Shown: positions 30,815-63,510 of the stretch, piece by piece
How the letters are laid out: each line of letters starts with the position of its first letter
Position numbering within the stretch: position 1 is the stretch's first letter
Source of the DNA: Phlyctochytrium arcticum
Lineage: Eukaryota > Chytridiomycota > Chytridiomycetes > Chytridiales > Chytridiaceae
Assembly (NCBI GenBank): GCA_025602905.1
Contig: JAHLKI010000027.1
Span: 124,001 to 188,000 of the forward strand
Direction: 5' to 3'
DNA length: 64,000 nt
Made by a program: the position numbers and the translations under genes
Notes under the pieces: generated by a model
Seen by the model: only the letters and a program-made list of their open reading frames with translations
Database searches by the model: none
Told to the model about the DNA's origin: nothing

Positions 30815-31076
30815 CGCAGCGAGCCCACGCATAAGCCCACCTGTCAAATAAACCCCCGCTTTCGCATATTTTCGCGTACGAAGCTCCTGGTATTTCCTTC
30901 GGCAACGAATACTCTCCACACCGTCCGAAATTGATGTGAATATTTTGAGCGTTCGCTGGAAAGGAATTTGGAAGACATGCCCTCCAACATCAAAATCATG
31001 CCATAATCCACCCATACGGTCGTTCAGCTGTTTTGACCACCATCCGTCAACTTTGTTCTTTTGGGCCGTGGGCTCG
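30815..31076 (+). repeat. GIY-YIG family copy A: 5' (promoter-like) module
   Basis: Plus-strand segment matching, with drift, the 5' regions found at 59205-59430 (+), 50430-50640 (-) and around the retrotransposon (47198-47340 and 40230-40308, -). Shared landmarks in order: GCCCACCTGTCAA, GCTCCTGG, GAATAC(T/C)CTCC, then ACATCAAAATCATGCCA(T/C)AATCC and ACGGTCGTTC. No coding frame continues from it: it abuts a reversed C-terminal fragment of the same family, so this locus is a rearranged remnant. Confidence 0.6.
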
Positions 31077-31079
31077 AGC

Positions 31080-31440
31080 TTAGATAGACCGATACAGTCT
31101 ATGTTGACGGCTTCGCCGCCGACTACTCTGAAAGTCTTGCCGATGTAGTCCTTGCCTTTTTTCGATGCCCTTCTGGCGACGAGTTGGACGTCACTTCCCG
31201 GAAGGAATCTCTTGAGCTTGCTCGTGTGTTCCGTTCGGCGTGGACTTGAATGGCCGATGCCTTCCTTCCTTTGACGATCGTCGACTTGGCGGTCTTGTTT
31301 GTCAGCTTGCCAGCAGACTCAGCACATCCTTCACCATACATTCGCCTCTGACTTCGACTCCCGGCTCTCCCCCACTTGGCCAGTTGCTCTCAGGTACTAT
31401 AGTAGCTCAACGCAATCGTGTCGTTCAAATCGATCCAACC
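31080..31440 (-). pseudogene. GIY-YIG family copy A: C-terminal-half fragment
   Basis: Reversed relative to the adjacent 5' module. Translation on the minus strand gives the family motifs LNDTIALSYYST, EQLAKWGRAGSRSQRRMYG and a GRKASAIQVHAERN stretch, then the segment equivalent to EVRLTTRRSPK. Frame shifts and stops are present. Neither the GIY-YIG core nor the C-terminal end is present. It is a decayed fragment. Confidence 0.65.
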
Positions 31441-31847
31441 ACTACAGTACGGTAAAAGCGCAACCTTTGTTATATATTTCGGTTTCAAAAAGTTATAAAT
31501 GCAGGAAGGTAGTATCACGACACATAAGTCATGCAAAGCTAAGGCCATGTCAAAGTTTTATAGATGAGATGTTCATATGCAATTCAGGTATATAGAGCAT
31601 ATAAAAAAAACAGCAGAGGATCAGGCCCCAGCTCCTACTCCTAGTCCTTTGATGCCAATTTGCCGAGGAGATCCGGTTGGGAAATTTGGCGATGAGAATC
31701 AAGGTACACACATGCATCTGGCTCTGACGCAAACAACTGCGCATCTCGACGGGAAACCCGTTGGAGGTTTGCGGTGGCTGAAAAGATGCGGTCCGAGTAG
31801 CGGACCCTCCGCAGTGTGTTGCACCCGACTCTGATGTTGTCAGTATT

Positions 31848-32102
31848 AACGTGATAATCCTCTTGATGGATGGATGGATGGATGGCACCACACGTTCTCG
31901 TTCGCGCAAGGTAGTTCACACGCTATGTATTGTAAGGTCCAACCTCTCAAACAGAGGTCTGGCATCGACTCTATATGTACACAACTGGGACACAACTTCG
32001 ACCGCTAATATAACTACATTTGGCAATCGACTGCGCAAACTAATCTGACATGTCACTTCCACTGCTGCCCTGCTACCACTGCTGCCAGGCTACATCACAA
32101 TA
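31848..32102. mobile_element. 255-bp insertion (or site of paralogue deletion) at the ankyrin gene 3' end
   Basis: The related locus at 49540-49905 runs continuously where this locus carries 255 extra bases. AGTATT lies on both sides (31842-31847 and 32103-32108), as expected of a 6-bp target duplication. The ends are weakly inverted (TTAACGTGAT versus TTATTGTGAT). Inside is a GGAT tetranucleotide run (about 31862-31887). The extra DNA supplies the stop codon now used by the ankyrin gene. A microhomology-mediated deletion in the other copy is the alternative. Confidence 0.55.
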
Positions 32103-34486
32103 AGTATTTGACATATTTTGCTTGGCTCTCTTAAATTTGTCTTCCAAACAACCTCCGCACATGGCATGACCCTCTTTGTTGAAGACGAGAGTGGTGTTGT
32201 TGATGGCAATTTGCGGCGAACCTTGACATGATATCCTCGTCAACTGGTTTGATTGTGGAACAAATGTTCCGTCAGAAAACAGCATTCCTCCGTGATCCCC
32301 CTCGTCAGTATCCGAAGTTTGGAAATCAAAATCCATATCAGTAATCCCGAGGTAAACGCAAATGGACTCCATGGTGGTATGCGCTGGCTCGTACTCGTAT
32401 ATAGAACTAGTGTTGTCCTGATTGATCTTGGTACAAGCACGTTTTTCGGGGTTGAGGTCATGGTAAAGCGCCGAAAGAAATAGGTGATCAAAACTCCAGG
32501 GTGGATAGGGTACTCCTATGCCCCTAAGGTATCGGAGAAGAGAATGATCATTGGCAATGAACGCCGGTTCCAGTAAAATAACCGCAAGTTCATTTGCATC
32601 GTGACCGCTGATGGTATACTGGGTTTGTCTGAGGAGTTCCAGAACGACATACTCTCTCTCGTTAATCGCACCCTTTACTGCGCTTTGCCATAGTTCTTTG
32701 TCGCTGGTAGAGATACTGCATTTTGGAGAGGGGGCTTTCAATTGATGCAATGCTACATTTTCGGCAGGCGACGATGGAATCAATACGCGAACTGCATCTT
32801 GAAGTCCTTGTAGGGCAGCAATAGCCAGCCAACGCTGCTTCAGTTTGTCGTGAGAGTAGAAGAAACCGCCATCAGGGTAAGAAGGGCCCGTTAGCGCATC
32901 TCGAATGATTGCAAATAAAACTGGCTCGTTTCGTTCAAGGGCTTCGGTACAGATATTATAGGCAAAGTATTGGGGAATAGTATTGCAGCCTGGTAGTGCT
33001 GCGCATGTCATCAGTTCGTATCGAAGGTCTTGCTTCACCGACTCATCCTTGTTATTATCGGCCATCAATCTCATTGTAAGCAAGCATATACGACGCAATG
33101 CGGCAACTGCGGCCGTTTGCGTTTCCGGATCCAGACCAATGGGTGCCACAACGACTTCCATTGGCCGCAACTTGAGGTGGACAAACAGATTGAAAAAAAT
33201 GTCGGACAGGGCAGACATTTCCCATCTCAAAGCAGGAGTTTTGATTGTCCGGATCATATGTTGTCGACATCTACTCATTATTCGGATCAAGGCCGGACTG
33301 CGGGAAATCGGAAGGTCAACATCGGTTAAAATCATAGGCCTAGACTCTGGTACGTTCTTGACAAAGTGCCAAAGAACTTTTTCTTTCCCATCCTTAATGG
33401 CACGGTTCGACGCGTGAATCATATCAGTGGGGTGTGTCTTCCTCATTTTGAACGCGGGATAGCGCAGACATGTCTCGAGCACCTCCCAGAAACCATGTGA
33501 AATTGCATGATAGACGGGCGGAATCCGTTGATCGGTTTCGCTCATTAAAGCGTTGAAATTGCCGGTACCGCCTAGCAGATTCCATAGATAGAGAAAATCA
33601 GACTCTGGATGGGTATATAGCCAAAGGTCAGCGCCTTTGCTTTGAATGTACTTGGCTCCGTAAAGGATAAGAAAATGTGCTACACTCGTGGTTTGACACA
33701 TCAGAGTGTTCTGCATAATTATGTTGCGGTCGCAGTCAGACATCCCATTTGTGAAAGGTTTACAAAACTCTAGAATGGGTCTAGTGGAGGCTTCTTCAAA
33801 CACCTTGAGGGCGACCCGTGGTACTTGCGTTGCATCCAGTTGCCGTATTAGCTCAAAAAATACTTCACTAATTCAAGGTGCCCGTAAGCAGCCGATAATG
33901 TAGCATACTTCAACAAGCCAGACAGCTCCGGTGCAGCCAGTGGCATCTCAGTCAGGGATTGAACTAGCTCCAATTTTCCATGTTCGATAGCCAAATTTAT
34001 TACCTGGCCCCGGGTTGCGCTGCCGTACTCGATGAATAGTTCGGTTAGAGGTAAACTGCCTTGGATGATAGCCCGTTCACCCGCTAAATACTCCATATTC
34101 ACAGTAGAACCGATATTTCGCTCGAAAAGTAAGCGCAGCATATCAATCTGCTCGAGTTTAACGGCCGTACTGGAAAAAGCCTCCGACATGCATCCCCCCG
34201 GGGAGAATTGAATTCCGGCATCCAAAATCAAATTAACTATGTTGCCTAACCCCAGTGCAATAGCGGTCCGAAGGGCAGCGTCTTTCGCCGGAAACAGGAC
34301 ATCCTGGCATTTGAAACAGCAGGAGCAGGCTTTAATGTCCGAGTGACCACCTGTTCGATGGTGCACACTGTCCCACTCCCAGCGGCAGTCCTTCAAAAAT
34401 TGTCGAACTTTTGCAATGTCGTTGGCTTTGACAGCTCTAACAAGGGCTATCGTCCGCCGTCCGTGTTCCTGCCGAGTGATCTTCAT
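32073..34486 (-). CDS. Ankyrin-repeat-type protein, one frame break at about 33850
   Basis: Two minus-strand frames form one gene: 34486-33848 (212 codons) and an overlapping continuation ending at 32073 (ATG at 33803, 576 codons). The first holds degenerate ankyrin helices (ALVRAVKANDIAKVRQFLKD, ALRTAIALGLGNIVNLILDAG, NLAIEHGKLELVQSLTEM, LSAAYGHLELVKYF). The frame breaks in a T6 tract exactly inside GHLELVKYF; one extra T would join it to FELIRQLDATQ. This suggests a homopolymer error or a fresh frameshift. The rest is alpha-helical with occasional ankyrin-like units. The C-terminus has a CGGCLEDKFKRAKQ motif that recurs at about 49.7 kb. The current last nine or so codons come from the 255-bp insertion. 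The role is unknown; it may be intact or a recent pseudogene. Confidence 0.62.
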
Positions 34487-35665: not shown

Positions 35666-36222
35666 ATGTCTGTACATCCCCAAGCACGTTCCCTTACTCG
35701 ACGGGCAAGTACACATCTCAGTCTGGCATCTATGCTCGAACAAATTGGGAGCGTAGCCCCTCCGCCTAGTCCCGCAACCCAATTACCAAACTTGAATCTA
35801 TCCATGGCCGAGACAGAGGCTCGTGACGAGGTGGAGCCTCGAGTTCCACCTTCTCAGCCCCTCAAACGCCAACTCCAGAAATGTTTACCACCCCTCCCAT
35901 TATCCATCATAATGCCCAGCGCCCAAGGACCATTGTCCGCCCTCGCTATCAAACCCACAGAAAGTCCATCCAGAATTCAGCACCCATAGACTTATTTGCC
36001 AGTATTTACGTGTCCGCGCACATAACAACAACAGTATCGGACTCATCTCAAGATTCCGTTGTGCAATCCATACGCGTTTTCCTACCTCTCGATGCCGACA
36101 TTGACCGAATCGGATTTACACGCTGCAAAGTTGATCGCACATGGGGAGTCAGGAATTTAGTCTCTTTTGGGATAGGATTCGCTCATAATGGGATGGTTTG
36201 GGAGTGGATTGGGTGTTTATGA
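35666..36222 (+). CDS. Possible small gene, unrecognised, frame change needed
   Basis: An ATG at 35666, 50 bases after a TATAAAG element, opens a Ser/Pro-rich frame of 107 codons. A second plus-strand frame (35881-36222) overlaps it and reads on through SVVQSIRVFLPLDADIDRIGFTR to WEWIGCL. Joining them needs an intron or a frameshift near 35880; no clear GT..AG pair settles this. No domain was recognised. It could be a real small protein or chance. Confidence 0.25.
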
Positions 36223-37189
36223 GATGGTTGGAAGGCCAGTCGAAAGAACGAACGAACGAACGAACGAACGGTTTTGAATGTTGAGCACAACATATAATCG
36301 CACCCCCCCCCCCCCCGATCACCCCATCCGGCCTCCAGACATCCCTTTATGGATATTTGTCATCCAAAAAGGGAATGGTAAAGTCTTGACAAGCACATCT
36401 CTGAGTGGGCGATCAACCCGTTTGGTTTTTGGACTTTCCGGCGGGCCTTGGTCGTTGGCCAATCATACCCGTCAAGAACCTTCCTCATGATGTCCCTCCC
36501 TCTCTCCGTGCACTCCGTACAACAACATCCACCCTCTCATCTTGAATTTTTGAAATCTAGGGACTTATGGGCCATCCGTGTTTTCTGTACCGTGTGCAGC
36601 TCTAGTGGAAATGGGGCAACGTGTTCCTAGCATGTTTGAAATTTGCTGAGCAGAGATTTGTCATTATCCCATAGTTTTCCCTCTTTTGAATGATATTTGC
36701 TATATGTGCCGGTATGCATCAGGGTATGCATGTTGCATACTTTAGTCTATGAGATCCTGAGGTGGTGTCATTAGCGCACTTCCTCCAAAAGAATAAACCT
36801 CAAGAAAAAGTAGCGAAGTGAGCAAAGGCAAGAGAGACACTGAGCACCAAAAGAAAAGTAATGAATCATTAGCAACCGAGAGGCAAAAAAAAACATTTAG
36901 CGAGCGTATAAAGGGAAATTTAATTGAGACCAAAGGACAGTATCAGCAAGACAGGCAAACGAGGTTTTAAGTTAACAGCAAATACAGCGAAGGTAAATAA
37001 AAAAAGGCATAAGGAAAGGGGAGGACAACAAAGCAAGAAAGGGGACAGATCCTTGGTTGAAAGAATGAAAATTCGGCCCCGCTGCTCTAACCTCAAATTC
37101 ATTTCGAGAACAGGACCCGGGCCCTGTTGGTTCGCGTGACGCTGTTCCGTCTGAGCGGTCGCCCTCTCTGTCTCTCATCATTACAGGCT
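36223..37189. other. Intergenic with simple repeats
   Basis: Contains a GAAC tetranucleotide run (36247-36269), a poly-C tract (about 36303-36316) and low-complexity A/G-rich sequence around 36780-37070. No gene was recognised. Confidence 0.45.
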
Positions 37190-39006: not shown

Positions 39007-39044
39007 CAGGATGGTTTGTTCAGCTCTGCTTGTCGGCCGAAGGA

Positions 39045-40308
39045 AAGTCCGCTTTTTAACAGGGATCAATCTTGACGAGAGCTGCCCGATTGATGGTGAC
39101 GATTTCGCTGCCGGCGAGCACTTTGAAATCCTTGCTGATGTACTCTCTGCCCGACTTTGGTAATTTTTTGGTGACAAGATTGACGTCGGCCCCTACAAGG
39201 AGTTCTCGGATCCTCTCCTTGCGGTCATCGTGGTACCAGGTATCATAGCCCTGAAGATTTCCTTCTTTCTTGGCTTCTTCGATGTGTTCTTCTTTGCCTG
39301 ATCAACCAAATACGCCGTCAAGGCACTCTTGCCATTCTGCTGCAATTGACTTTGAACCCCTGCCCTGCCCCACTGCGCGAGCTCTTCTCGGGTGCCGTAG
39401 TAACCCGGAGCGATAAGTCCTGTCAGGCGAACAGTCCAACCTCAGGCGGTTCTTGCAGTTGGTCAGTTTCTGGTTACGGTAGAACTCCCCAAGAACCTGC
39501 ACTACGCATTTGAAGGTCAGGATCTCTTCTCGGCTGAGGGCATCCGTATGCAAGACGACATACACGGCCAACTTGCTATCTTTGGTGATATTCCGGTACC
39601 GACGATACTTGGCTTGGGCCGCCGCTTGGCCGGGCTGCTCTCCGCAACTTTCGGCGATGTTGATATGCTCCTGGCCACGTTTGTATAGGCCACCTTTGTC
39701 AATTCGCGTGCCAGACCCGGCATAGGCTTTCTCGTCGACCGTGAAAACGTAAACCCCGAAGTTCTGGTCGCTGGGTTGGATGGGATCGAGAACGGCCTCG
39801 TTGATGCATCCGTCCTTGAGATAGGCCTTGGCCTTCTCGGTCGGTCAGTAGAGAAACGATCAGCCAGGATTTCCAAGTCTTGGCTGAGAACTGTAGCAAT
39901 CGGGAAGGTAACTTTGGTCCCGTCTTCAACCGCCCGGCGAGCAATCCCCGGTGAATGGGATCTTCGTTCTTCGCATTGAACGGCGTTTAAGAGAGGGTGG
40001 CGATCTGATTGTCTTCGTCGTCCGAAAGAACCAGATTGACCATAGGCTGGGCAGCGTCGAGCGTAGAGGTGGGGTCCTCAAGAGGTGTTGTTGCGACAAT
40101 CGGAGTATTGGGTCCTGCGTACTTTTGACTTTGACGTTGCACTAGGTGAATATGTCTTTGAGTGAAAGCTTGAGGTTTCTTCGCGGGGAAAAGAGTCGGT
40201 GGAAAGAGGTGAACTTGGAAAAGTTGAGTGACAGGTGAGGTTAACGGTGGTGGTCAAGACGGCTGGACTCATTGTGGCATGATTTTGATGTTGGTCCCTG
40301 CCGGTCCT
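39045..40308 (-). pseudogene. GIY-YIG family copy C, frameshifted and 3'-truncated
   Basis: Minus-strand copy with its 5' part at 40308 (ATG at about 40275, MSPAVLTTT) and the same Ser-rich leader as copies B and F. The core is readable in pieces: GVYVFTVDEKAYAGSGT, GGLYKRGQEHINIAES, VAVYVVLHTDALSREEILTFKCVVQVLGEFYRN and NCKNRLRLDC. EYISKDFKVLAGSEIVTINRAALV is read just before the truncation near 39045. At least three frame changes are needed. Its 5' control module is split by the Ty3/gypsy element: the distal half resumes at 47198. Confidence 0.7.
40304..40308 (+). repeat. Target-site duplication, left copy (GTCCT)
   Basis: GTCCT immediately precedes the left LTR and recurs immediately after the right LTR at 47198-47202. 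A 5-bp duplication is the expected size for Ty3/gypsy integration. Confidence 0.9.
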
Positions 40309-40544
40309 TGTAGCGTTTTCGGGTAAAAAGTGGTATGGACGGTAATGCACCTTCCCAGGGTGCGTGAGTCGGGTTGTGTATTGCTTTAGCGCAGAGTAAA
40401 GAGAAAGCGTAAAGAGTCTGAAAATGTACAGTGCAGGATGGGATATACAAAAAGAAAAACAAAACAACACGTGTGATGTGGCACGGCACTGCGCTGTTTG
40501 CGCAGTGGTGCGGACAATGCGCAGCGAACCACGAGCCCGCTGCA
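40309..40544 (-). repeat. 3' LTR of the Ty3/gypsy element
   Basis: Reads TGTAGCGTTTTCGGG to CCCGCTGCA on the plus strand, giving the standard TG..CA ends. It matches the other LTR at every position I compared. Confidence 0.95.
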
Positions 40545-40553
40545 CCCCCCTCA
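40545..40553 (-). other. Polypurine tract
   Basis: On the coding (minus) strand TGAGGGGGG directly abuts the 3' LTR. That is the expected place and composition for the plus-strand primer of an LTR retrotransposon. Confidence 0.75.
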
Positions 40554-41227
40554 GACTCGATGCTGGAAAGAGGAGCGAGGCTTCAGATCAGGGTTCGTGT
40601 GTCAGCAGAAAGATTGAAGTATCAGGTCACCAGCACAACCTCACCGGGCAACTATACACCGAACACGCCAGACGTGTATAGAAGCCAGCGGTGCAAGTGA
40701 ACAAACCGAACAACGCCAGACGTTTGGTCACCTGAATTGTGTTGGATCACCTCCAAGTCAATTTCACTGTTGTCACAGGCATGAATAGCTGCTACTTGCA
40801 GCTTCCCCGAGACTCTCGTTGCAGATTGTGCAACAACCGTGTGCGCATGTTCGCACAGGTACGAAGGTAAGGATGTGTTTCCTTGCGTTGAAGGAAATTA
40901 CGCGTAATGACGGAGATAAATGTTTCCCCGGCCTCTCATCACCTATGCATAGATGATGCATCAACTCAGCTCAGGCTGATCAGGCCTACCGGAGTTCTGA
41001 CGTGCGAGACGCGTCGTCAGCAAGGAGCAACCTTGGATGTGGGTCTCAAAGTGTTGAGATGGTGCGCGCGCGTAGGTAGTATCAAGATATGGGATGGGAG
41101 GTCCCGAATAGTAATGAATGACGTGAAGTGTTGCAAGAGGACACTCGTTGCTTTGATAGCAGTCATGCGGTATTCTCTCATTGAGAATGTGATACTTTGA
41201 ATATGAAACACATCTTCCTTGACGTCA
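40554..41227 (-). other. Retrotransposon 3' untranslated region
   Basis: About 670 bases between the pol stop codon and the polypurine tract. There is no supportable open frame on either strand. It belongs to the element, not the host. Confidence 0.6.
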
Positions 41228-46838: not shown

Positions 46839-46951
46839 GTTGAACGGAACAAAGAGTAGAAAGAATTAAAAGAAGCGAAAGAGGTAGAAGCGAAAGGTCG
46901 AGTCGAAAGGGTAAACGGACGGTTTGAGGCTAGTAGGATTGCTGATGGGGT

Positions 46952-50896: not shown

Positions 50897-51240
50897 TCCT
50901 TCATGAATCGTTCTTTTGAGCATGAGTGATATACGCTCGAAACAATACGGTGGTTTGCTCCGGCCATCGTGCCTCCTCATCAATCCGTTTAAAATGATAC
51001 GGCGATTTACTCAGGAAGCCTCTGCCATCATGCCCTGTTCATGAATTCTTGTTTTGAACATGAGTGATATAAGTTCAAAATATACGGTGGTTTGCTCGGG
51101 CAGCACTCGGCCATCGTGTCCTTGAATTGTTGTTTTGGGCATGAGTGATATCCGTCTGATATCCGTCACTCATCGAGCGTTGCTTGTGATTGTCTGTTCT
51201 AGAGCAAATTGATATCGGTCAAAAACCATACGGTGGACCC
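50885..51240. repeat. Degenerate tandem units carrying tRNA-Ser 5' ends
   Basis: About four units of 60-100 bp, each beginning with (CTCTG)CCATC(G/A)TG(C/T)C, the complement of the tRNA-Ser acceptor 5' end. They continue TGAATT-TTGTTTTGA-CATGAGTGATAT and ATACGGTGGTTTGCTC. The first unit is the real tRNA flank. A further related piece lies near 58905-58980. They look like repeated duplication of the tRNA 5' flank. Confidence 0.65.
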
Positions 51241-51930
51241 TGGTGCACCGCCGTCCACTCCATCCTCGGTGGTAAAGAAGTGAAGGCCCCCTGAAGGGGG
51301 TGCGAGGAAGACCTCGACATATACACAGTACACTTGCCGACAAACAAAGCCATCCTGAAACTGGGGATTCATAACCCAGCGAAACGCGAAATTTGACCGC
51401 GCAGAGAACGATGAGCGTGTCAGCTCTTTAACTCCATTTAGGCGGTTTAATTGCCTTAACGGGACGCGTTCGGCCCGGATTGGGACTTCATGAGCGGATC
51501 AGAGGGGTCAGGCCGATTATGTGATTATCATGACTGAACCTTGAATCTCGGTCGGTCGGTGTCTTTGACTCAAGGAAGATGAAGGAAGGGAGAGAGCCAG
51601 CAACAATGGGTGGGACGTTCCTGTCCTAGGACTGTCCTAGTGGCAAAGTTACGCAAAATTCGGCACCTGGCAAAGTCATGTAGTGACCGACGGACGCGTC
51701 GCGGGCACTCCGCGGCGACGGGACGCGCAATGCATCACAATTCCAAAAACAAACTTCCATCGAGGAATCCCAAAATTTGCAGAGAGAAAGACTATACTTT
51801 ATGGCAAAGAGTAGAAAGGAAACCGGAGAAAATGTGAGAAAGAGAAGGAAACTACACTACAAACTACTATTAAGGAGCTAAACTAAAAAGATAAATAAAC
51901 TAGGACTTGCTGAAGGAATCTGCGCCAGAG
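51241..51930. other. Flank between tRNA repeats and transposase gene
   Basis: 690 bases without a gene. The segment CCCGGATTGGG-CTTCATGAGCGGATCAGAGGGGTCAG (about 51474-51511) resembles 59100-59138. An imperfect palindrome CCTAGGACTGTCCTAG lies near 51626. No transposon end could be fixed by eye. Confidence 0.45.
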
Positions 51931-54900
51931 TTAAGACGACTTGGCGGAAGAAGCAGGGCCAAACAGACTCAGAATGTTACCATCCTTCGCGGTCACTCTT
52001 TTCTCGCACCGGAGTTCTTTCCCATCACACGTTCTTTTGTTGGAACTGCAGTATGGGCATTGTCGTTCACAGCCTTTTTGCGCACCATTGCATATCTTGC
52101 CTTTCGCCTTGCACGAATTGCACCGCAAGGCGACCTTTCTCTTCTTCTTTGGTGGCTCTAGAAACAGCAAGTTTATATACCATTTAACGATCGGAGGCTA
52201 AATTCTTGTTCTTACCTAACCGTAAGTTTGATGAAGGAACCGACGCCGAGGGACGAAGGGATGAGGCGGGCGCAGGGGACAATGTTGAAGGAGAGCCAGA
52301 CGCGGCGGGTGTGGAGGATTCTGTCGGGAGGATTGTGGAAGCCGAGGCTGCTGTGGCGGTTATTACGGAAGAAGCAGGAGGTGGTGCCAACGCGGGGGGT
52401 TTGGCTTTATCCCCAAAAAGTTTTGTGACTCTTCGATACACCCTTTTCTTGAAAGCTTCCAACTCAAGCGATTCATACTCCAAGGGGTACCATTTCTTGG
52501 CATTGGCGCAAGGCTTCGCCCATTCCCACCGACGGCCGCTTTGCTGATAGCGCACAGCGAACCAATCGACGATGTTATCTTTGCTGGCGGGAGGGTTTTC
52601 TTCGTTGTCATTCTCGATCACCGTTAACTAACAAGGTGTCAGGAAAAGCGACAAATATCGATATACTGCGAAGAAAACTTACCGCTTCGATCGCTGCCTC
52701 CGCGTCATCTTTCTGTTTTCTCAACGCTTCCCATCGCTTTTCCAACGTTTTTGGGAGCCGGTATTGGAGATCTTGTGTTAGGAGCGACATCAGCTCCATC
52801 AGTGATAGGAACTTCTGTTTTGGGTACGTGAGGGCCGACTTGTGGATCGCCTCAAAGATATCATGCGCTATGGAGCTCTCCAAATTGTCAAATGGTGCGT
52901 TGGTGGGGGCTCTCGGGCGAATTAGAACGATAACTTGCGGGGTGTATTTTTCAGTCTCGCTCTGACTTCTCAATTTCTGCCGGACCTCGGTGACCTCTGC
53001 GGCCGTAAGCCCATGCTCCAATGCTGCCTCAAATGGTGTTTGGTCCACAAAGATGCTGGAGTCAATGAGAGCCACGTACGCCTTGACGCGTTGTTCGATC
53101 GCAGCAAACGATTTGAACCCCAGTATACGCCCATGATCCTTGACGTCCTTCACCATGTCTTGGAATTGCGTGACGGCTGCGTTGTACAAGAGCATGGCTA
53201 CAAGCGGGCAGTACTGGTCTTTGACATTGGCCTTCCAAGCGATCCCTTCCATCTGCGTCAAGACTTTGCGCAGCAAGATATACTCATCCTTGCTGAATGT
53301 GCTACGCGACACATCTAGGAAGTTCATACCCAAACAGTTGAGAAATTCGGCGGACGTGAGCCTTCTGCCTGGGCGGAGAACAGCAGGTGAGGCAGCCATG
53401 AGGAATTGCTTTAAGGGGCCAGCTCTAACTTCCTTCTTTTGCATACCCTTGAGCGACAGCTGCTGGAGATCCGAGGCTCCGATAGGGTCCTCTGGTAAAC
53501 CCTCCTCGTTGAGTCGAAAAAATACTTTCCAGTACGACACTTTTGGCTGCAGGACGGCAGTGGGTTGGAGATTTTTTAGTCCCATGCCTTGCTTTAAGCG
53601 ACGGATGATTTGCAAGGCATACTCTGTCGTATCCGGAATATCTGGGATGTACTCACGCGTCACCAACGTGTGCCGCAGGAGAGTGAGAATATCGAAATTG
53701 TGGATGGATGGGATTCGGCCAAATTTGATTCCGCAGTCGTGGTTGCGCTTGAAATAAGTGGTAAGAAATCGACACGCAATACCTCAAACTGAATTGAAGC
53801 GCCTACCTTGATTACGAAAAAACTCAAAAGCCTGAGAGCTAGCTCAGGACCCATCTGGCGGTTGCTGAGCTTCTTGAGCAGGGCGTTGGTGCTTTCTACT
53901 CCACTGGTATGGAGGAGTTTAACCTTCTCGTTGTTTTCTTCGTAGGTGTTGGAGCCATTCATGTACAGGCAGCCATCCCGAATCAGCTGGGCATTTGCCT
54001 CCACCGTGCCGTTCCACTTTTCCAAAGAGGCCGCACTAATACTGTTGTTGCGGTCCACACTTCGGCATGCTGTCTCGAAAGCAACAGCTGCTTCTTCGGG
54101 TGGTCTGAGGTCTTTTGACTCTGTGTATAGTGCCGCCTTCAGGGCGCCTGCCACGCGCGCCCGTTCAGGCTTGTCAGATATCTTAGATAGAATCCTATTA
54201 AAACAATGCAGCCGTCGTTAGCAATCGAATAATTTAGCCAAAGTTATATCGACATACCGGTTCATTAGGTGCCATGGGTCTTGCTTCACTTCTATGTGGG
54301 GATTTTTTTGGTTGACCAGGCCTTGGACGTTATGGACATTGTCGGTAATCAGCATTATCGGATGATCCGCTGATTAAAGATGCTCTCAGCACGAGTCATG
54401 TTAAAGGTGCCAATCAAGTCTTTCTCACCTGTGGGGGTCCATCCTTCTTGGTCAGCATTCGCAAGAACTTTGTCTAACGTTGGTTCTATGTGCTCATGGC
54501 TTTCACTGCCAATGAAAGCGATATGCAGAATTTGTCCGATTTCATTTTGGACTATATGAAGTCCTTTCATTGACTCGGGGGTGTTGTGTTTTCCGGTTGC
54601 TGGGTCGTACACGCGAATATGGCTGGAATATTTGTACGTGGCGTCTATGGAGATACACTTCTTTGCCCTGGACATCGACATTGTGGCTTCTGCAACATCC
54701 AGGGCACCTTCAGTGAGTGCCAGCCAACAGTCTAGAAGACCCTTGCCTTCATAGACGTCCTGCTGCGCCAAGTATTCCGTTAGTGGGCGTGAAGTTGGGC
54801 GAAGGCTCGGTTCAACCGTTGAAAACTGGGTTTCCATCCTGGCATTGAAAATGCCGCACAAGTAGGACCATCTTTCGCTTCTCGCGCGTTTCAGGGTGCG

Positions 54901-55561
54901 GAGATAAGGGTTTAGGCCGTTCGGACCGACGATGTTATGGTGAATGTCCACCAACAACATCCTCGATAATCCCGCCTTCAAAGTGAGACAGTAAGGGAAC
55001 GCGTTGGCCAAGGCTGGGGTGATCTTCTTCATAAACGCTGTCGATACCGTGTTGAAGGGCGTCTGGGTGGTGGAGCAAGTGTAGGAGTAATAAAGAATGC
55101 GGACTCTGTAGGAGTGGTCGTCTGCAAATCTGCCGTGAGCGTCCTTCCCTGAGAGTAACAATGGGTTCAGCTCCTGTCCTCATACATATAAACGATGACC
55201 ACTTACTCTTGGGAATGCAGTTGTCGCAATGGACGCAGGGAACAATTGATTTATCGAAAAAATTCTCAGGTGTCCAACGGAAAATGGGGCAATCAAAGAG
55301 AGCTGGAGTGCTGCGCAATTTGGGGTGATGCTCGGGAAGAATGAGGGAGGTTTGATGGTCAGCATCATTAAGCGCTTCCTTAAGTAGGGCTCTATGCTGC
55401 TCAGTGATCGGCTCCTTCTTTGCCTTACTTTCTTTGGGATCTTCGTCTTCAAAAGAAGCAGTGTCGGTTGGGGGTTCAAGGGGATGACCATCAAGGATGC
55501 TGAAAACATCATCCAAGTCGCCTTCTTCAAAGTCGTAGTCAGAATACTCTTCGTCACTCAT
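51931..55561 (-). CDS. Intact DDE-type DNA transposase, 7 exons, 1,092 aa
   Basis: Exons (descending): 55561-55207, 55148-54429, 54369-54258, 54194-53807, 53747-52683, 52627-52216, 52157-51931; 3279 nt, no internal stop. An acidic N-terminus is followed by a CVHCDNC zinc-binding motif. The presumed catalytic core has KCISIDATYKY (first Asp), MLITDNVHNVQ (second Asp, rebuilt exactly by splicing intron 2), HIEVKQDPWHLMNR, then LHTSGVESTNALLKKLSNRQ (candidate Glu). A long helical region, a low-complexity Ala/Ser/Pro linker, an NLS-like PPKKKRKV and a Cys-rich cluster (CNSCKAKGKICNGAQKGCE..CPYC..C) complete it. The superfamily was not identified with certainty; the protein does not show KDZ, Mutator or hAT signatures I know. 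The spliced, intact frame suggests a live or domesticated transposase. Confidence 0.75.
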
Positions 55562-56706
55562 TTTGTGGAGATCTAGTTTTCAAGAGGGAATCAACTCGTT
55601 CACCTCGCTTTTGTCTTAAGTCTTTGGTTTTTTTTTCCCCATAAAATTCTCGCGTTGTGCGCAGCAAGGAACTCTGCAAGAGACTGATGATTGCAAGCTT
55701 ACTCGCAAAATCTCGCATAACGTGCGCAATTTCATATTTGACCTCCTTCTGAGAGTAACGGTTTCGTGATATCTGTGCTCGTCACATAACAGCTCTAAAA
55801 CATATATTTTCGGCTGATACTTTTGCCTCTGATGTTCAAAATGCTTTGTGTATTTGATTCTACTCTTTTATTATGCATGTATCGTAATCAAAAAGAATAG
55901 AAACACTTGGTAGAACGAGCCCTTAAACATGAATTCACAGGAAATACATACGCAAAATTGTGGCCAAGAAGGCAAGATGCGGTACTGGATGCGGTAGGAA
56001 ACTCGAAGATGCGGCGGGGTCAGTCGGGAGGTTGCGGGATTTGGGATGTCTTCATCTCCGGAAATTTCCGCGGATTTGCGGAGCTAAGCAATCCGATTTG
56101 CGGCGGGAGCGCACCCATAACCAAGCAGGATAGCGAAAACGCCTCGACGCGTTGGTTGCCATGCCAATAAGTTAAACTTTCGCGAGAAGTTTTACTCGGT
56201 TTTGGTCGCACTTTCAACCAGAGAGAAGTTCAGGAGAACCACGTCTTATTATACACTTCAATCGCGGTAAGTGGGGAAGATCAGGGGAAGATCCTCTGAA
56301 GATCCCGATCCAAGTGGAGAGTTCTTGATTAGTCTATAGACCAACGTTCATCTCAATCAGTAGCAAGACAGGATGGCCGAGCTTTGAGATGATCTTCTCT
56401 CTACATGTCAGAATGTACAGGCCACATACCGGACAAAGAAAATAATAGCTTCCCAGCAGTTCTCCAGAGTAGGTAGCATGTAATGCATCTGGCGTTCCAT
56501 CTAGGTTCTGTTCACAGGAGGATCAAGACAGTCCAGTTGGCGAAGAAATTGGCAAATCACAGCTGTGTTTCGGTCGTTCTCACATGGCCCAGGGCGCAAT
56601 CGGCAATAGTTGTATAAAGGATGAGACTGCTCTCAACAAGCGCTCCGGATTGAATAAAAAGCTTTATCCTCTGTCAAAAACAATAAAAAAGGAAATCTGA
56701 TCTCCG
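55562..56706. other. 5' flank of the transposase gene
   Basis: 1.1 kb without a supportable gene. No inverted match to the left flank was found by eye. TACGCAAAATT occurs on both sides of the transposase gene (near 51651 and 55949), but in direct, not inverted, orientation. Confidence 0.45.
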
Positions 56707-56788
56707 CGACACGAGCAGGATTTGAACCTACGCGGGCATAGCCCACCGACATTCGAAATCGGCTCCTTGACGACTCGGACATCGTGCC
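56707..56788 (-). tRNA. tRNA-Ser (CGA), second copy, somewhat degenerate
   Basis: 82 nt in the same orientation as the copy at 50.8 kb, with the same acceptor stem (GGCACGA/TCGTGTC), long variable arm (GGGCTATGCCC) and T-arm. The anticodon loop TTCGAAT gives CGA, but its stem ends in a T-G pair. The D-loop has CG where GG is universal (AGTCGTCAAGG), which may impair folding. It may be a functional minor copy or a decaying pseudo-tRNA. Confidence 0.75.
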
Positions 56789-57135: not shown

Positions 57136-58449
57136 ATGTCGATTTTCAACAGCTTTGAGGATCCGATTCACCGGGGATTGCTCGCCCTAAAACAGTTCGC
57201 GATTGAAGACCAAACGAAAGGTGCTTTTCAACTCGCGGCGGTTTTGTCGCAAGACCTTGAGATGTTCGCCGCGCGGTTTGTTTCTCTTCTGGACGATGGG
57301 GCCAAGGCGTATCTCAGGGCGGGATGCATCAACGAGGCCGACCATCTCCGGCAGATCCAACCCGGCGACACCAAATATGGTGTATACGTCGTGACCGTGG
57401 ATCACTGCGCGTATGCCGGGTCAGGAACGGGAGACAATGGAGGGATGTGGGCTCGTGCCCGGGACCACCTCAACCCCGGCTACCGACAGCAGCTCGCCCA
57501 AGCCCGATACCGGCGGTATCGTGTCATAACCCCTGACAGCACGGTAGCCGTCTACATCGTCTTGCTTACTGATGCATTGAGCGCAGAGGAGGTGGTGGCC
57601 TTTGAGTACTTGGTGCAGGTTCTTGGGAAGTTTTATCGCAACAGGACCCTCGAGACATGCAAGAACCGACTGGGGTTGGGCCGTTCGGTCATCGGGGACT
57701 ACCGGGGCCTAAACGACACGATTGCGTTGGGATACTTTGGCACCCGCGATCAGCTTGCCCAATGGGGCAGGGCTGGGGTGCAATCCCAACGGCAACAGAA
57801 TGGCGTGGATGCCCTGACGGGGTGGTGGGTCGATGAGGACAATCAAGACCGGCAAGTCGAGATGACCAAGCGAGGACGGAAGACTTCGGCAGTCAAAAAC
57901 CACGCGAACCTTAAGAGCAAACTTCACAGATACCTTGAGGGATGTGAGGTAAGGCTCACTACGCGACGGTCGCCCAAGGCAAGCAAGGTCTACGTCAGCC
58001 AAGACCTCAGTATCCTCGGCCGCGAAGTCGTCACCCTCGACCGTGCCGGCTTGGCAAGCATCATCGGCGGGACCGCATTCGACGAGCTCCAGAAGGTCCA
58101 CTTGACCGTGGAGGTTGCCGACCCGAACACCCACCATCCCAACTCGTATCTACCCCACGAACTCGACCGCGAGCATCAGACAGGCATCACGAGAATCGCA
58201 TTCAAGCTCCGGTCGGCGGACAGCGACGTTCCATGGACGTTTTATAACCGACTCTCGACAAAGGGAAAGGGCTCGGGAAAGGGGATGGAGAAACGCAAAG
58301 TTATCTGCGAAAAAATCCTCCGAGCCTACAACGACGATGACTTGGTTTGGGACGAGGAGATCGAGACGGAGAGGGCGACGAGTCTGGTGCAGCGGCGTCG
58401 CGCAAATCTGGATGGAGGAGCGGGGGTGGCGGGTCCGAGTGGCCACTGA
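57136..58449 (+). CDS. GIY-YIG-like nuclease, family copy E, only intact member (437 aa)
   Basis: Single exon. The frame is open upstream to about 57063, but the first ATG is 57136. Residues 1-75 form a helical lead (IHRGLLALKQF, LDDGAKAYLRAGC). The GIY-YIG-like core runs from about 81 to 180: GVY (82-84), YAG (93-95), an Arg/His cluster ARARDH (106-111), VAVYIVLLTDALSAEE, a Glu in VAFEYLVQV (157) and the Asn in CKNRLG (177). These are the positions expected of the Tyr, Tyr, Arg, Glu and Asn of this nuclease fold. Then come RGLNDTIALGYFGTRDQLAQWGRAG, a basic region (RGRKTSAVKNHANLKSKLHR) possibly binding DNA, and a conserved C-terminal domain (VHLTVEV, TGITRIAFKLRS, WTFYNRLS). It ends GVAGPSGH, as copy B does. 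Family assignment is inference from motif order. Confidence 0.72.
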   Translation: MSIFNSFEDPIHRGLLALKQFAIEDQTKGAFQLAAVLSQDLEMFAARFVSLLDDGAKAYLRAGCINEADHLRQIQPGDTKYGVYVVTVDHCAYAGSGTGDNGGMWARARDHLNPGYRQQLAQARYRRYRVITPDSTVAVYIVLLTDALSAEEVVAFEYLVQVLGKFYRNRTLETCKNRLGLGRSVIGDYRGLNDTIALGYFGTRDQLAQWGRAGVQSQRQQNGVDALTGWWVDEDNQDRQVEMTKRGRKTSAVKNHANLKSKLHRYLEGCEVRLTTRRSPKASKVYVSQDLSILGREVVTLDRAGLASIIGGTAFDELQKVHLTVEVADPNTHHPNSYLPHELDREHQTGITRIAFKLRSADSDVPWTFYNRLSTKGKGSGKGMEKRKVICEKILRAYNDDDLVWDEEIETERATSLVQRRRANLDGGAGVAGPSGH

Positions 58450-58607
58450 CCTGGAGAGGATATATATCATTGTATTGTATTTAAGGAGGTTCAAATATAC
58501 ACACTTGCCTCCCAACTTTACTCTTCTTTGTCCATTTTGCGTTTATAGGAATGTTGTAAAGTCGATATCGTAAAATTGGGCGTATCTTTGGGCCTTGTGT
58601 CGTATCG
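58450..58607 (+). other. Conserved 3' tail of GIY-YIG family copy E
   Basis: A/T-rich segment GTATTTAAGGAGGTTCAAATATACACACTTGCC.. that also follows copies B, D and H (for H, 63380-63510). It ends near GTGTCGTATC-AAATC. No poly-A run or inverted end was seen. It is the shared 3' UTR of the family. Confidence 0.6.
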
Positions 58608-59204
58608 AAATCGTCAGATGTTTCCTGTACGGGGCCAAGAACATTTCTTTTGTCGAAAGATTTATATGCAGAGCGTCCTGCTTGGTTGAATATGCTTGAT
58701 TGAGACATCGATGAGATCCAACCAGGGATCGTCGGGTATTTTAAGCCCATTGTAGACGATGTCGTTTCCTCCGTGGTTCGGTTATGACAGCTGGTTGTTC
58801 GCCTACGGTCGAAAGCGTGTGGGGCAACCGGATACATATAAGCTAAGCTGCTTTTGTGTTTCCTGGTCAAACGCTGAGGTTTGATCGCAAACGAGCGAAT
58901 AGACTGCTCAGATCTTTGATTCTTTTTGAGCAATGTTATGTTCAAAATGATACGGAGGGACCTCGGGCAGTCATCATATCATTTGTTTCTACGGAACCTG
59001 GAATGCCTCCTAGTATTTGATCGCGCAAGGAGGCGGACATGCTTTTCAGGTCTGTAGTCCCTTTTGAGTAGAGAGGCGTCCATAATGGGACATTTTGAGC
59101 CCGGATTGGGGTTTTATGTGTTGATCACAGGGGTCAGAATACGCGTTAAATTTCGTAAATTTGCGCCTACAAGCGAGAACGGTGGTCGAACGGCTCGAAC
59201 GGCC
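58608..59204. other. Intergenic with repeat remnants
   Basis: Contains a unit resembling the tRNA-flank repeats (about 58905-58980) and a 38-bp match to 51474-51511 (59100-59138). No gene was recognised. Confidence 0.45.
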
Positions 59205-60330
59205 CAGTCGGCCAAGCCCACCTGTCAAACTGTCAAGGAATGCATGCACATATAAGGGGCTCCTGGCCATTCCCCCCGGCAAAGAATACCCTCCGAAATC
59301 ATTTGAATACTTTCTGGAAGGAGCGGGGGTTCGCCTCGTGGATCTTGGAGAACATCAACATCATTCATGCCACAATCCATACGGTCGTTCGGCCCTCTTG
59401 ACCACCATCGTCAACCTTGTTGTTTCGGAGACCGTTAGGAACGGATGCCAAACGCCGTTCAATGCACCGACCGAGGAAGCAACCCAACGGGGATTACTCT
59501 TGCTCTCGACTCAGTTCTCGCATTGATGCAGTGATCCCTGCCTTGCTTTCGGATCCCGTACTGTCAGTCCATAAATTGGACACCTGTCACTCAAGTTCTC
59601 CCGCCAACCTCTTTCCACCGACTCTTTTGTAAGTGGCATTCCTCTGCGAAGAACCCTCAAGCATTCACACAAAGACACATTCATCTAGTGCAACGTCAAA
59701 ATCAAAAGTAACAACATCCCCCCTCTCCCATCCTCACGATCGACCTCACCTCTCCCAAACCTCCCATCCTCACGGCACCCACGGCCGACCCCACCATTCC
59801 GGTTGTCACCAACACCTCTTGAGGACCCCAACACTCCGCTCGATGCACCACCTCGTGCTCCCACCAATGTCAATTTGGTTCTGTCGGAAGAAGACGACCA
59901 ACAGATCGCCACCCTGTCCCAAACACCTTTCGACCCAGATACCGAAGTACCCATCCACGGGGCTTGCTTGCCCTGAAAGATTTCGTGGTCCGAGACTGGA
60001 CCAAGGTCACTAGGCCAATCGCCACGATTCTCAACCAAGCCTTGGAAATCCTGACTGATCGGTTTCTTTCCCTCCTAACCGATGGAGCCAAGGCGTATCT
60101 GAGGGACGGATGCATCAAAGAGGCTGATCATCTCAACCTTCTCAAATCCAGCGACACCAAGTTCGGTGTCTCCATATTCACGGTCAACGACAAAGCCTAC
60201 GCGGGGTCTGGAACGCGAACCGACAAAGGAGGCCTGTACAAACGTGGGCAGGAGCATATCAACATCGCCGAAAGTTGCCGACAGCGGCCTGACCAAGCGG
60301 CGGCCCCAGCCAAGTATCGTCGGTGCTGTC
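59205..60330 (+). pseudogene. GIY-YIG family copy F: 5' module plus N-terminal half
   Basis: Has the best preserved 5' module: AAGCCCACCTGTCAA, GCACATATAAGGGGCTCCTGG (TATA-like), GAATACCCTCC, CGTGGATCTTGGAG and CATGCCACAATCC. Next comes the Ser/Pro leader, with a stop and frame shifts. VNLVLSEEDDQQIATLSQTP leads to a readable core: AILTDRFLSLLTDGAKAYLR-like segment, KFGVSIFTVNDKAYAGSGT, GGLYKRGQEHINIAES. It breaks off after KYRRC. In GVS the second Tyr of GVY is lost. Confidence 0.68.
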
Positions 60331-60408
60331 TCTCTTGGCATCTATACGGTATGTGTATTCCGGTCATTTCCAGAGAATTGTGAACCATGCTCAGACATTG
60401 TATATTAG

Positions 60409-61335
60409 AACAAGAGATGGCAGTATCTTGAACATGAAGTGGCAAAGGAGAGGGAGCTACGGGAGTTGGGGGTGGCAAAGGAGAGGGAGCTACGGGAGTT
60501 GGGGCTTGCGAAGGAGAGGGAGCTAAGGGAGAAGGATGTTAAAAGGCTGGAGCTGGAGATCCGGGAGCAAGTAGCGAAAAGCATGCTCAAGTTTGCCGTT
60601 GAAGACGGGACGACAGTTGTCTTCCCCGTCGCAACTGTTTTATGTCCAGATCTGCAATTCGTGGCCCACCGATTTCTCTCTCTATTGACCGACAAAGCCA
60701 AGGCCTATGTGAAGGACGAATGCGTCGATGAGCACGAGCATCTCGACGAAATGACACCCAGCCACACCAGCATGGGTGTTTACATATTCACCGTCGACCA
60801 GAAGAAAGCGTATGCCGGATCAGGCACGGGATCAAAGGGGGGTCTTTACGCGCGTGCCAGGGACCATTTGAGAGCCGAGTACCACAACCTGCCTGGCCAA
60901 GGCGAATATCGTCGATACTACAAAGTCACCAACAAGACCAAGCTCGCGGTGTATGTCGTCTTGCACACCGATGGATTGAGCCGAGAAGAGATCATAACGT
61001 TCGAATGCTTGGTGCAGGTCCTGGGAACGTTGTACCGCAACCAAAAGATGACAGACTGCAAGAACCGCCTGGGGTTGGGCTGTTGGGCGGACAGGACTTA
61101 TCGAGGCCTGAATGATACCGTGGCTCTCGGCTACTATGGCACCCGAGAACAGCTTGCGCAGTGGGGGAGTGCCGGGATTCAAAGCCAAAGGCTGATGTAT
61201 GGTGGGAAGGATGCCTTGACGCGGTTTATGGATAATGAGGACAACCAAGACGATCATGTTGAAATAGCCAAGCGGGCAAAGAAAGTGCAAGCCATTCAAG
61301 GATTCGGCATCGACCTCTCCACAACAACGATCTGA
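60409..61335 (+). CDS. GIY-YIG family copy G, chimeric with coiled-coil repeats, C-truncated
   Basis: The reading frame opens at a splice acceptor (TTAG at 60405-60408). A strong donor GTATGT at 60349 would join it in frame to GAVSLGIYT, making a 60-nt intron, so the ATG lies upstream and is not certain. The exon begins NKRWQYLEHEV and then has three copies of a 10-residue heptad-like unit (AKERELRELG), a charged coiled coil replacing the usual Ser/Pro leader. The core is well kept: MGVYIFTVDQKKAYAGSGT, GGLYARARDHLRAEYHNLPG, EEIITFECLVQVLGTLYRN and DCKNRLGLGCW. Then come RGLNDTVALGYYGTREQLAQW and the basic KRAKKVQAIQ. It ends abruptly at AIQGFGIDLSTTTI, lacking the C-terminal domain. Intact catalytic residues suggest a possibly functional offshoot. 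Confidence 0.6.
   Translation, partial: NKRWQYLEHEVAKERELRELGVAKERELRELGLAKERELREKDVKRLELEIREQVAKSMLKFAVEDGTTVVFPVATVLCPDLQFVAHRFLSLLTDKAKAYVKDECVDEHEHLDEMTPSHTSMGVYIFTVDQKKAYAGSGTGSKGGLYARARDHLRAEYHNLPGQGEYRRYYKVTNKTKLAVYVVLHTDGLSREEIITFECLVQVLGTLYRNQKMTDCKNRLGLGCWADRTYRGLNDTVALGYYGTREQLAQWGSAGIQSQRLMYGGKDALTRFMDNEDNQDDHVEIAKRAKKVQAIQGFGIDLSTTTI
60439..60533 (+). repeat. Three tandem 30-bp coding units
   Basis: Units of GCAAAGGAGAGGGAGCTACG type, period 30-33 bp, nearly identical for the first two and drifting in the third. Each encodes AKERELRE(L/K). They keep the frame of copy G. Confidence 0.8.
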
Positions 61336-62839
61336 CTTACTTTCAACGATCCTATCACAGATTGTACGTTTGTTTACCCTATTTCATAAACTTTGTGACT
61401 AAGATCCTTTACATAGGCCCCATCATGTCCGACATCATACGAGCCATTGAGGAGCGCGCCCGTGCCCTCATTGCCAGCACGGAAGCGCTGCCGCCGCCCG
61501 AAATGCTGGCCTTCGCAATACCCTGATACCAGAGAATACAAGTTATCGCGACCGTATTCAAGAATTAATTGCGCAGCACGGCAGCGCAGTCAGCCCAGGA
61601 CCGCTATTGCTGATCGCTTCAACACCCATCGCCCACAAATCCCAGCACCTCGACATCCATCGCCACTGCCTCACGTTCCTCTTGGCACATCTCCCCTCTT
61701 CGCCAACCTTTGCATCGCCAACACACCCGAAGCCACTACTTTCGACGACGTAGAAAATACAGAGGCGCCGACCGACGAGGTCCCCACTCAACCTGCTGCG
61801 AATTTTGCAGATGTTCGTCCTGTTTGAGGCAGCCCAGTCCCACGGCCGTCGCTTGGAGCGGATTATGGCAGCGAGTTGGACGCCGTCTCCCGAATTAAAG
61901 GTATTTCGTGACAAAAATTCTGCCAGGTGATGATACTCATTGTTGGTGACCAGACCAACATCAAGCGGGAGACGGCTAAGATCTGCCGTAATCCGAAGGC
62001 GCAGTCCTACGTTGGCACGACGGATGCATTGGTCAAGAAGATTTTTGTCAATGAGTGGGGCGTGGCCAAGGAGAGCGCGAGCGTGCCATCCATTCACAGG
62101 GGTGTCTCTGAGTTGATTTTGCGCCAGAACAATAGAAGAAACGAAAGACGCAAGTCCAGGGCAAACCGGTGCTCGACATTGCCCTCACAGTACCTAAAGC
62201 CGGTCCTTCCTCTAGCGGCAAATACCCTAGTACTGCGACCGACTAAGCGCCGCCTCACCAAGTTATTTCCAGATGTTGATTGGCTGCAGGTACATTGATA
62301 TTTTGAATGGCTCAAATTCAAACAAACAAACTACTTCAAATACTTAGATGTCTGAATTACCTCGAATTTGTTCGTGGGAAACGTCTCACGTGGAAGGTCA
62401 ACTTGTGCCCGCGCCAGCCAGACTTCAAGGTCAGACATGCACATTCAAAAGCTCAACACGGCTCTCAGTTTCACACCAGTGGGAGCCAAACTGGATGAGC
62501 GCGTAAGTTGCGGCGTAACCGGTGCTCGGGGTCCTCCGTCGTTTCGTATTCAAGGCAAAGTGCGTCACGGTTATGGGCTCTCTATTGCCTGCTCCCGGTC
62601 GCGCGCCCCTCTTCTCGCAGCGTTACGTCTGCGATACCCAAAGCTCTGAGCAGCCTTTTACGTAGTGGCCCTCGCCGGAAATAACTGATGCTTTGCCCTA
62701 GAAGTGGGAAAGATATGTATCCCGAACGCTTGGAACGAGGCGGTGCATTTAGGGTTTATTGAGGATAACTTGGATGCCTTCCGTACAGCACACGAGAAGC
62801 TGCAAGATCTGGAAGAGCTGGTCAAGATCATTCCCGTGG
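61336..62839 (+). other. Decayed coding-like region, unrecognised
   Basis: Several plus-strand stretches look protein-coding but do not join into one frame. They are: SDIIRAIEERARALIASTE (from 61426), AGLRNTLIPENTSYRDRIQE (about 61505-61565), FVLFEAAQSHGRRLERIMAA (about 61811-61870), VMILIVGDQTNIKRETAKIC continuing to KKIFVNEWGVAKE (61927-62100), and VGKICIPNAWNEAVHLGFIE (about 62706-62765). Candidate introns exist (GTATTT..CCAG at 61901-61926). Possibly one broken gene; no family was recognised. Confidence 0.35.
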
Positions 62840-63510
62840 TGCACCCGCCTTCGACCTACTGAAGAAGGTGCATTTGACAGTGGAGATCGCGCAGGAGAAT
62901 ATCCACCACCCCAAGTGATACCTTGACCGCGATGTTGACCGCCAGCACGAAACGGGTGCTCTCAAGCTTCATGGCCACTCTATCCAAGCTGCCCTTTGAA
63001 TTGGATGGACCGCTTCCAAGCAAAGGAAATTTCAGGGGGTTCATCATTCATCGCCTTGAAGTGCGGCAACGGCCATCGGTTTCAAAACGCGAGGCCGGAA
63101 AACTCGACGCCCAGTGTAAAGCCTGTTTCGATAAGTCTCAACGAACGACAACCGAGCTCCAGAACGCGGACGGCGGCTTACCCTGGACGTAGCTACAACC
63201 GATTGAGGTCTAAGGGAAACGGCTCAGGAACATCCCACGAGAAAAAGAATGAGATCTGCCTCCGCATCCTCCGAGCATACAACGATGAGATGCTCTGGGA
63301 CGAGGAGCAGGCGACGGTGAGCGCGAGTGCGACGGGCAAATCGGGATGCACCCGCGGGGCCGAGTGGTCACTGAATCCTGGAAAAATTTATAATTTTGTA
63401 TTTAATGAGGTTCAAATATATACACTTGCCCCCAACTTTACTATTATTTGTCGATTTTGCCAGAAATCTTTGAGCGTATCCTTTGGCCTTCTGTCGTATC
63501 AAAACCTCAA
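62840..63510 (+). pseudogene. GIY-YIG family copy H: C-terminal fragment and 3' tail
   Basis: Starts at LLKKVHLTVEIAQENIHHPK (about 62858), passes several stops, then reads YNRLRSKGNGSGTSHEKKNE and ICLRILRAYNDEMLWDEE, matching the end of copy E. It is followed by the shared 3' tail up to about 63510. No N-terminal half precedes it. Confidence 0.68.

Follow-up and report, generated by a model that had tools for sequence, protein, structure and literature searches.

How one gene came to lie in a series of mostly broken copies within a short part of a fungal genome, and what its protein may do, are the questions raised by a stretch of DNA from the chytrid Phlyctochytrium arcticum (64,000 nucleotides; positions 124,001 to 188,000 of contig JAHLKI010000027.1, here C27), hereafter the window. 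It was analysed together with the genome of the same fungus (31,481,740 bases in 91 contigs). The gene encodes a protein of about 440 amino acids (aa), and its central ~100 residues most probably form, on sequence grounds, a nuclease domain of the GIY-YIG kind. The locus is best explained, in our judgement with reasonable probability, as a cluster of putative nuclease genes of the GIY-YIG type that is under birth-and-death evolution and arose by local tandem and inverted duplication. The family has so far been seen only in this genome, at this one locus. Its copies, lettered A to H, are listed below by position in the window, with residue numbers taken from copy E.

30823-31064, plus strand: 5' module piece beside copy A.
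31076-31434, minus strand: copy A, a fragment of about E residues 190-309, which adjoins the oppositely oriented 5' module.
37108-37174, minus strand: probably one more piece of C-terminal tail, downstream of copy B, with a 73% DNA match to a relic on contig C5.
37304-38567, minus strand: copy B, near full length, frameshifted.
39068-40237, minus strand: copy C, about E residues 8-309, with stops and frameshifts; the residue corresponding to E157 is Lys, and the copy is represented by the public gene model DFS34DRAFT_696841.
47805-50633, minus strand: copy D, a broken mosaic of E residues 45-105, 165-201 and 205-437, with its 3' end at 47805 and its 5' module at about 50459-50633.
57136-58449, plus strand: copy E, the sole full-length open copy (437 aa), with the putative GIY-YIG domain at about residues 80-180 and unassigned N- and C-terminal regions on either side.
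59958-60326, plus strand: copy F, an N-terminal fragment.
60580-61299, plus strand: copy G, open over E residues 17-254.
62793-63519, plus strand: copy H, a C-terminal remnant (E residues from 296) with 3' flank.

The presence of a multicopy family, claimed in a preliminary description of this DNA, was confirmed by tblastn with copy E, which detected homologous pieces across 31.2-63.3 kb of the window. In the genome searches, for which all match counts are lower bounds, the 437-aa query gave 16 matches at an E-value of 1e-3 or less, and all 16 were located within C27:155,076-187,328, corresponding to 31,076-63,328 of the window; the best non-self match (E-value 3.8e-78) was far beyond chance. 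The N-terminal part of copy B likewise matched only the cluster (nine of nine), and the cluster accounted for 12 of the 16 matches of copy G, 12 of the 13 of the C-terminal half of copy E and seven of the nine of the C-terminal part of copy B. Outside it were four matches of copy G (E-values 0.007-0.016) involving the charged repeat with which this copy begins, one match of the E half on C5 (E-value 8.5e-4), and matches of the B part on C5 (E-value 0.005) and C7 (E-value 0.73). No substantial part of the gene was found outside the cluster with any of these queries. The C-terminal match on C5, at about 1,077.7-1,078.1 kb, consists of two pieces that can be aligned with several copies; over short stretches its DNA is 73-90% identical to that of H, D, B and the downstream flank of B, and it looks like a genuine relic of the family. 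When flank DNA was used as query, four of the five matches of the 5' module and both matches of the 3' flank were in the cluster; the fifth match of the 5' module (74%) was a relic piece of 5' flank at C44:93,802-93,934, and positions 58,990-59,190 matched only themselves. The family is thus nearly confined to one locus of ~33 kb and is clustered rather than dispersed. The preliminary description had called it dispersed, possibly a selfish element; the protein and flank searches gave no support for this, since all they found outside the cluster were the relic pieces on C5 and C44, weak matches and a flank repeat on C14 described below. The charged repeat of copy G (60466-60580, KERELRELG-like) was not seen in other copies and has weak matches on C3, C23, C76 and C77.

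The copies form two opposed head-to-tail arrays, with the order D, C, B, A on the minus strand and E, F, G/H on the plus strand. Between the 3' end of D (47,805) and the beginning of the C 5' flank (47,501) there are about 300 bp, and between the 3' flank of E (~58,617) and the beginning of the F 5' flank (~59,015) about 400 bp, indicating that each pair is arranged head-to-tail. D and E point away from each other. Copy F shares 74% identity with C (78 codons) and 54% with its neighbour G (92 codons), and thus F and G are separate copies; because of their order G and H were taken as one copy, H being probably the rest of G beyond a split of ~1.5 kb. The earlier count of at least seven loci is modified to this extent, and also by the probable extra tail fragment at 37,108-37,174. 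The claim that only E is uninterrupted stands for the full-length frame, while G is also open over its shorter part. Except for E, the copies are damaged by frameshifts, deletions, a fragment of a neighbouring gene and transposon insertions.

Flanking DNA was duplicated together with the gene, in agreement with the conserved flanks noted before. Its main pieces, including a distal repeat named R1, are as follows.

47213-47501, minus strand: remainder of the copy C 5' flank beyond a retrotransposon; R1 begins at ~47501.
51391-51511, plus strand: R1 repeat in the E orientation within the spacer between D and E, presumably the distal 5' flank of E, with a transposon-like element between R1 and E.
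58440-58617, plus strand: 3' flank of E, common to H and D.
59017-59720, plus strand: copy F 5' flank, with R1, a proximal module that by eye includes a TATA-like stretch, and a possible intron in the 5' untranslated region (UTR) at 59629-59688 (GT-AG only).

The proximal 5' module is common to F, C, D and A; in F and D a TATA-like sequence was noted by eye. The possible 5'UTR intron (GTAAGT...TAG) is common to F and B, and C keeps the region without GTAAGT. By sequence comparison the proximal module was not detected at copy E, and the expression of E is therefore not certain. The distal repeat R1 has an identical start point at five places; its strict motif, TTGATCGC[ACG]CA, was found at four positions of the window, each of them an R1 start. 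A search of the genome for the R1-start pattern gave four matches (control 0), three in the cluster and one on C14, where a 3-kb stretch contains several pieces resembling R1 and, with a best tblastn E-value of 0.068, nothing convincing as a gene remnant. R1, first taken as the common border of a gene-carrying element, must therefore be regarded as a wider repeat that is unusable as an element end. The proposal that a whole gene with its promoter moves as a unit is accordingly retained for the co-duplicated flanks, but only within one locus, with no proximal module detectable at E and with R1 also present on C14. The C14 locus, around 69,679-69,711, also has a bZIP-type coding stretch (by eye). 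Within the window, two R1 repeats (36110-36228 and 36416-36322) stand face to face, and no gene piece was found between them.

The history of the copies was estimated from their coding sequences. Among the 28 pairs that can be formed from eight copy pieces, 11 with an alignment score below 80, mostly non-overlapping pieces, were dropped. In all of the 17 comparable pairs the ratio of nonsynonymous to synonymous substitution rates (dN/dS) was below one, ranging from 0.16 to 0.47 by a simple Nei-Gojobori count in which the synonymous rate (dS) is saturated for many pairs. The dS values ranged from 0.39 (C-F) to 1.88 (E-B), and those of E against the seven other pieces from 0.63 to 1.88. The low ratios indicate that the copies diverged as working genes, mostly under constraint, with decay apparently coming later. 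The gene with its flanks would have been multiplied by local tandem and inverted duplication, along some presumed route of recombination, and all copies except E would have decayed after a period of functional divergence. Birth-and-death evolution is a general kind of evolution of tandem gene clusters. This cluster resembles others of the kind in its single locus, linked head-to-tail copies with common flanks, many pseudogenes and dN/dS below one, and differs from them in having no named relative in the collections searched. What was found comes close to segmental duplication alone without common borders, the outcome which the preliminary description had itself set against its proposal of a mobile unit.

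The GIY-YIG superfamily is defined (PMC1564403) by the ordered motifs GIY and YIG, a central Arg, a C-terminal Glu and, in most families, Asn. Copy E has residues in this order, G82-V83-Y84, Y93-A-G95, R107, H111 (four after the Arg), E157 and N177, and it is through these that E would cut DNA, while its C-terminal ~240 residues may bind or aim the nuclease. The key residues are kept in E, G and B, while the Tyr of GIY is lost from D and F and the Glu is replaced by Lys in C. An ordered motif pattern of our own design, not validated on known GIY-YIG proteins, was matched by 23 of 20,000 shuffles of E and by 10 of 20,000 shuffles of its residues 61-200; a GIY-YIG gene on contig C60 (first motif GCY) would escape it. 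Among 594 distinct open reading frames (ORFs) of at least 120 aa, from the window and other loci, the pattern had six matches, all of them ORFs of E, G, B and C. A profile of the family was then compared by HHalign with a profile of ten GIY-YIG sequences of the homing endonuclease type, consisting of eight phage records (eight of the 15 listed among 101 records matched), one viral contig and the C60 gene. The two profiles aligned in register over GVY...YAGS...R...H, and none of 300 column shuffles reached the score (24.4, against 21.6 for the best shuffle); the reversed profile scored lower. From these results we consider it quite likely that the central domain of the family is of the GIY-YIG type.

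Several results weigh against this assignment. The HHalign probability was low, 19% (E-value 0.0012), compared with 77% for yhbQ as positive control. Earlier and smaller profiles gave 11.7% and 9.0%, with none of 100 shuffles as high in each case, and a small family profile against yhbQ alone gave 1.4%. As a single sequence, residues 60-200 of E scored 10.5, no better than other parts of E (9.6-12.2), and the support thus comes from the family profile alone. The Pfam GIY-YIG model found three places in the genome, none of them in the cluster, and no GIY-YIG match was obtained in Pfam, NCBIfam or solved-structure sequence searches of the proteins scanned. A single-sequence AlphaFold model of E had a mean predicted local distance difference test score of 36, with the least poor stretch at about residues 81-160; it was unusable and nothing was drawn from it. 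The earlier GIY-YIG reading is plausible from the ordered residues in E, G and B and from the in-register alignment, but not from the HHalign probability or a Pfam match. Other matches were taken as chance, including peptidase M16 (Pfam; E-value 0.0077, or 0.0012 for the cut-out domain, both below the cut-off), the weak match to Fnr (NCBIfam; E-value 0.056), thermolysin (E-values 0.17-0.38) and a designed protein (E-value 0.18). Genome-wide, the Pfam GIY-YIG model scored highest at C35:216,678-216,806 (31.5 bits), for which Slx1 would be the expected gene. The C60 gene, presumably mitochondrial, occurs twice on its 61-kb contig, at 25,184 and 57,996; the two occurrences are separated by 32.8 kb and do not differ around the match, a layout as if a circle of ~32.8 kb had been assembled nearly twice; it contains an in-frame TAG, which is Leu under code 16.

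Among known proteins the only relative detected was DFS34DRAFT_696841, the gene model of copy C itself. Word-gated searches of a database of 5.8 billion proteins found no relative outside the locus; because of this gating the absence elsewhere is weakly supported, and the negatives of single-sequence searches, which did not return even DFS34DRAFT_696841, are likewise weak. The viral contigs scanned gave 76 pattern matches and no relative, the phages two chance records at an E-value of 5, and the plasmids none. The family is unnamed among the matches listed from the open-licence literature, as far as the matched portions of those texts extend. The known systems closest to it in motif order (GIY, YIG, R, H, E, N) are the GIY-YIG homing endonucleases of the I-TevI type, found in mitochondrial introns or free-standing in phages, to whose ten-sequence profile the family aligns in register; in contrast to these, it is a nuclear multi-copy cluster with no known DNA-binding module found and a weak profile score. 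A decayed gene of GIY-YIG type in fungal nuclear DNA is also known from Ustilago maydis, where UMAG_11064 is described as a recently inserted gene that came from mitochondria and has their codon usage (PMC7593156). Unlike that gene, E has a GC content at third codon positions of 0.69, above that of two neighbouring host genes (0.55 and 0.56), and the genome search with E gave no match to the C60 gene. Eukaryotic nuclear GIY-YIG proteins of the COG3680 and ANKRD41 (ANKLE1) type are also known (PMC1564403), but E has no ankyrin or LEM match; a weak ankyrin match is present in a separate neighbouring ORF.

If the motifs had arisen by chance, the genes would form an unrelated orphan family. The HHalign probability, the failure of the Pfam GIY-YIG model at the cluster, the unusable structure model and the lack of any Pfam hit other than the sub-threshold peptidase M16 would all suit this reading, but the rarity of the ordered motif in shuffled sequences and the absence of any shuffled profile as high as the real one make it unlikely. 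With the domain accepted, the cluster might instead be the work of the protein, in that a free-standing, homing-like selfish nuclease gene would cut related sequence at the locus and repair would copy gene and flanks, both building and eroding the cluster. Such a gene would fit the best profile match, to GIY-YIG homing endonucleases, and would account for one intact copy amid decayed ones, for flanks copied along and for dN/dS below one; yet ordinary unequal exchange yields the same cluster, the proximal 5' module is not common to E, and no known DNA-binding module was matched in E by Pfam or NCBIfam, and we give this reading only a small chance. It is rather improbable that the locus represents a self-propagating nuclear gene for a GIY-YIG nuclease, independent of introns and belonging to an early fungal lineage, which would build a local array of whole units of gene, promoter and 3' flank when the breaks it makes are repaired from neighbour copies.

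A gene-carrying transposable element, dispersed and bounded by R1 and the 3' flank border, was suggested by the common R1 start at five places, the 3' border shared by H and D, and the single relic pieces on C5 and C44. It was rejected on the genome searches, in which many unlinked sites were not found: no copy with a substantial gene part was found elsewhere in the genome, and the R1-like sequence at several C14 places is without a convincing gene remnant. In addition, no transposase was found inside the unit, and inspection by eye, without a dedicated search, showed neither terminal inverted repeats of the unit nor target duplications; this explanation is very unlikely. Penelope-like elements are known eukaryotic nuclear carriers of GIY-YIG domains (PMC3846280), and a retroelement of this kind or its remnant would share this feature with the family. 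The unit, however, is not dispersed and has no reverse transcriptase (RT), either in E or elsewhere in the unit as examined, as the preliminary description had stated. Among the 21 window ORFs of at least 200 aa, 18 were scanned (three antisense to transposon genes being left out), and the sole RT, at 41.2-44.4 kb, is that of a Ty3/Gypsy element inserted separately, with its own target-site duplication (TSD). A Penelope-like origin was rejected on the absence of RT from the unit and is extremely improbable.

Three unrelated transposon-like elements lie within the cluster, and these, together with a foreign piece and two tRNA genes, are listed below (MITE, miniature inverted-repeat transposable element).

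40309-47197, minus strand: Ty3/Gypsy chromodomain retrotransposon, which splits the 5' flank of C; not a family member.
48333-48920, no strand assigned: MITE-like insertion of ~590 bp in D, with ~88% identical copies on C3 and CTATTGCTATG on both sides.
49552-49902, no strand assigned: neighbouring-gene piece in D, matching 31739-31847 (84%) and 32103-32352 (90%).
50813-50896, minus strand: tRNA-Ser(CGA) gene upstream of D, with flank sequence that is found again in the D-C spacer.
51583-56122, minus strand: multicopy transposon-like element between R1 and E, 98.4% identical to a copy on C51; not a family member.
56706-56788, minus strand: second, diverged tRNA-Ser(CGA), upstream of E.

The Ty3/Gypsy element has two identical long terminal repeats of 236 bp, the TSD GTCCT at 40304-40308 and 47198-47202, RT with RNase H, integrase and chromodomain, and ORFs for gag and protease beside these. 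For the element at 51583-56122, a protein stretch of 268 aa has 41 genome matches, and three of its ORFs gave no Pfam match at an E-value of 0.05. A large inverted arrangement at C3:714,000-723,900 contains two copies of an end of this transposon and two of the MITE-like element, facing each other. The source of the foreign piece in D is the 3' part and flank of a gene at ORF 32073-33803, which has no Pfam match; the adjoining ORF 33848-34486 has the weak ankyrin match (Pfam). The tRNA-Ser genes were considered as an insertion target and rejected, since flank pieces are found in the D-C spacer (E-value 1e-8) but are only marginal in the E-F spacer (E-value 0.013), and since the tRNA is on the gene strand at D and on the opposite strand at E. 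At 50882-51151 the 5' end of the tRNA-Ser, together with the flank upstream of it, is repeated in tandem in degenerate form.

The ORFs to either side of the cluster look ordinary; they include an NAD kinase and an ion channel (Pfam) and a receptor-like gene at ~29.5-30.3 kb (by eye), and those on the right side resemble ABC transporters, by eye and without a search. Elsewhere in the window, two adjacent stretches (8203-8920 and 9461-10177) are 76% identical over ORFs without Pfam match and are perhaps another tandem gene pair.

If the GIY-YIG fold should fail, the locus would be an orphan gene cluster of an ordinary kind in which the anatomy of pseudogenes is well displayed. If it is true, the family would represent a GIY-YIG branch beyond the reach of the Pfam model, for which the word-gated database searches found no relative outside the locus, and a chytrid nuclear protein-coding family that is neither a Penelope element nor a recognisable mitochondrial intron gene. 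One intact copy, E, remains, and it can be expressed and tested.

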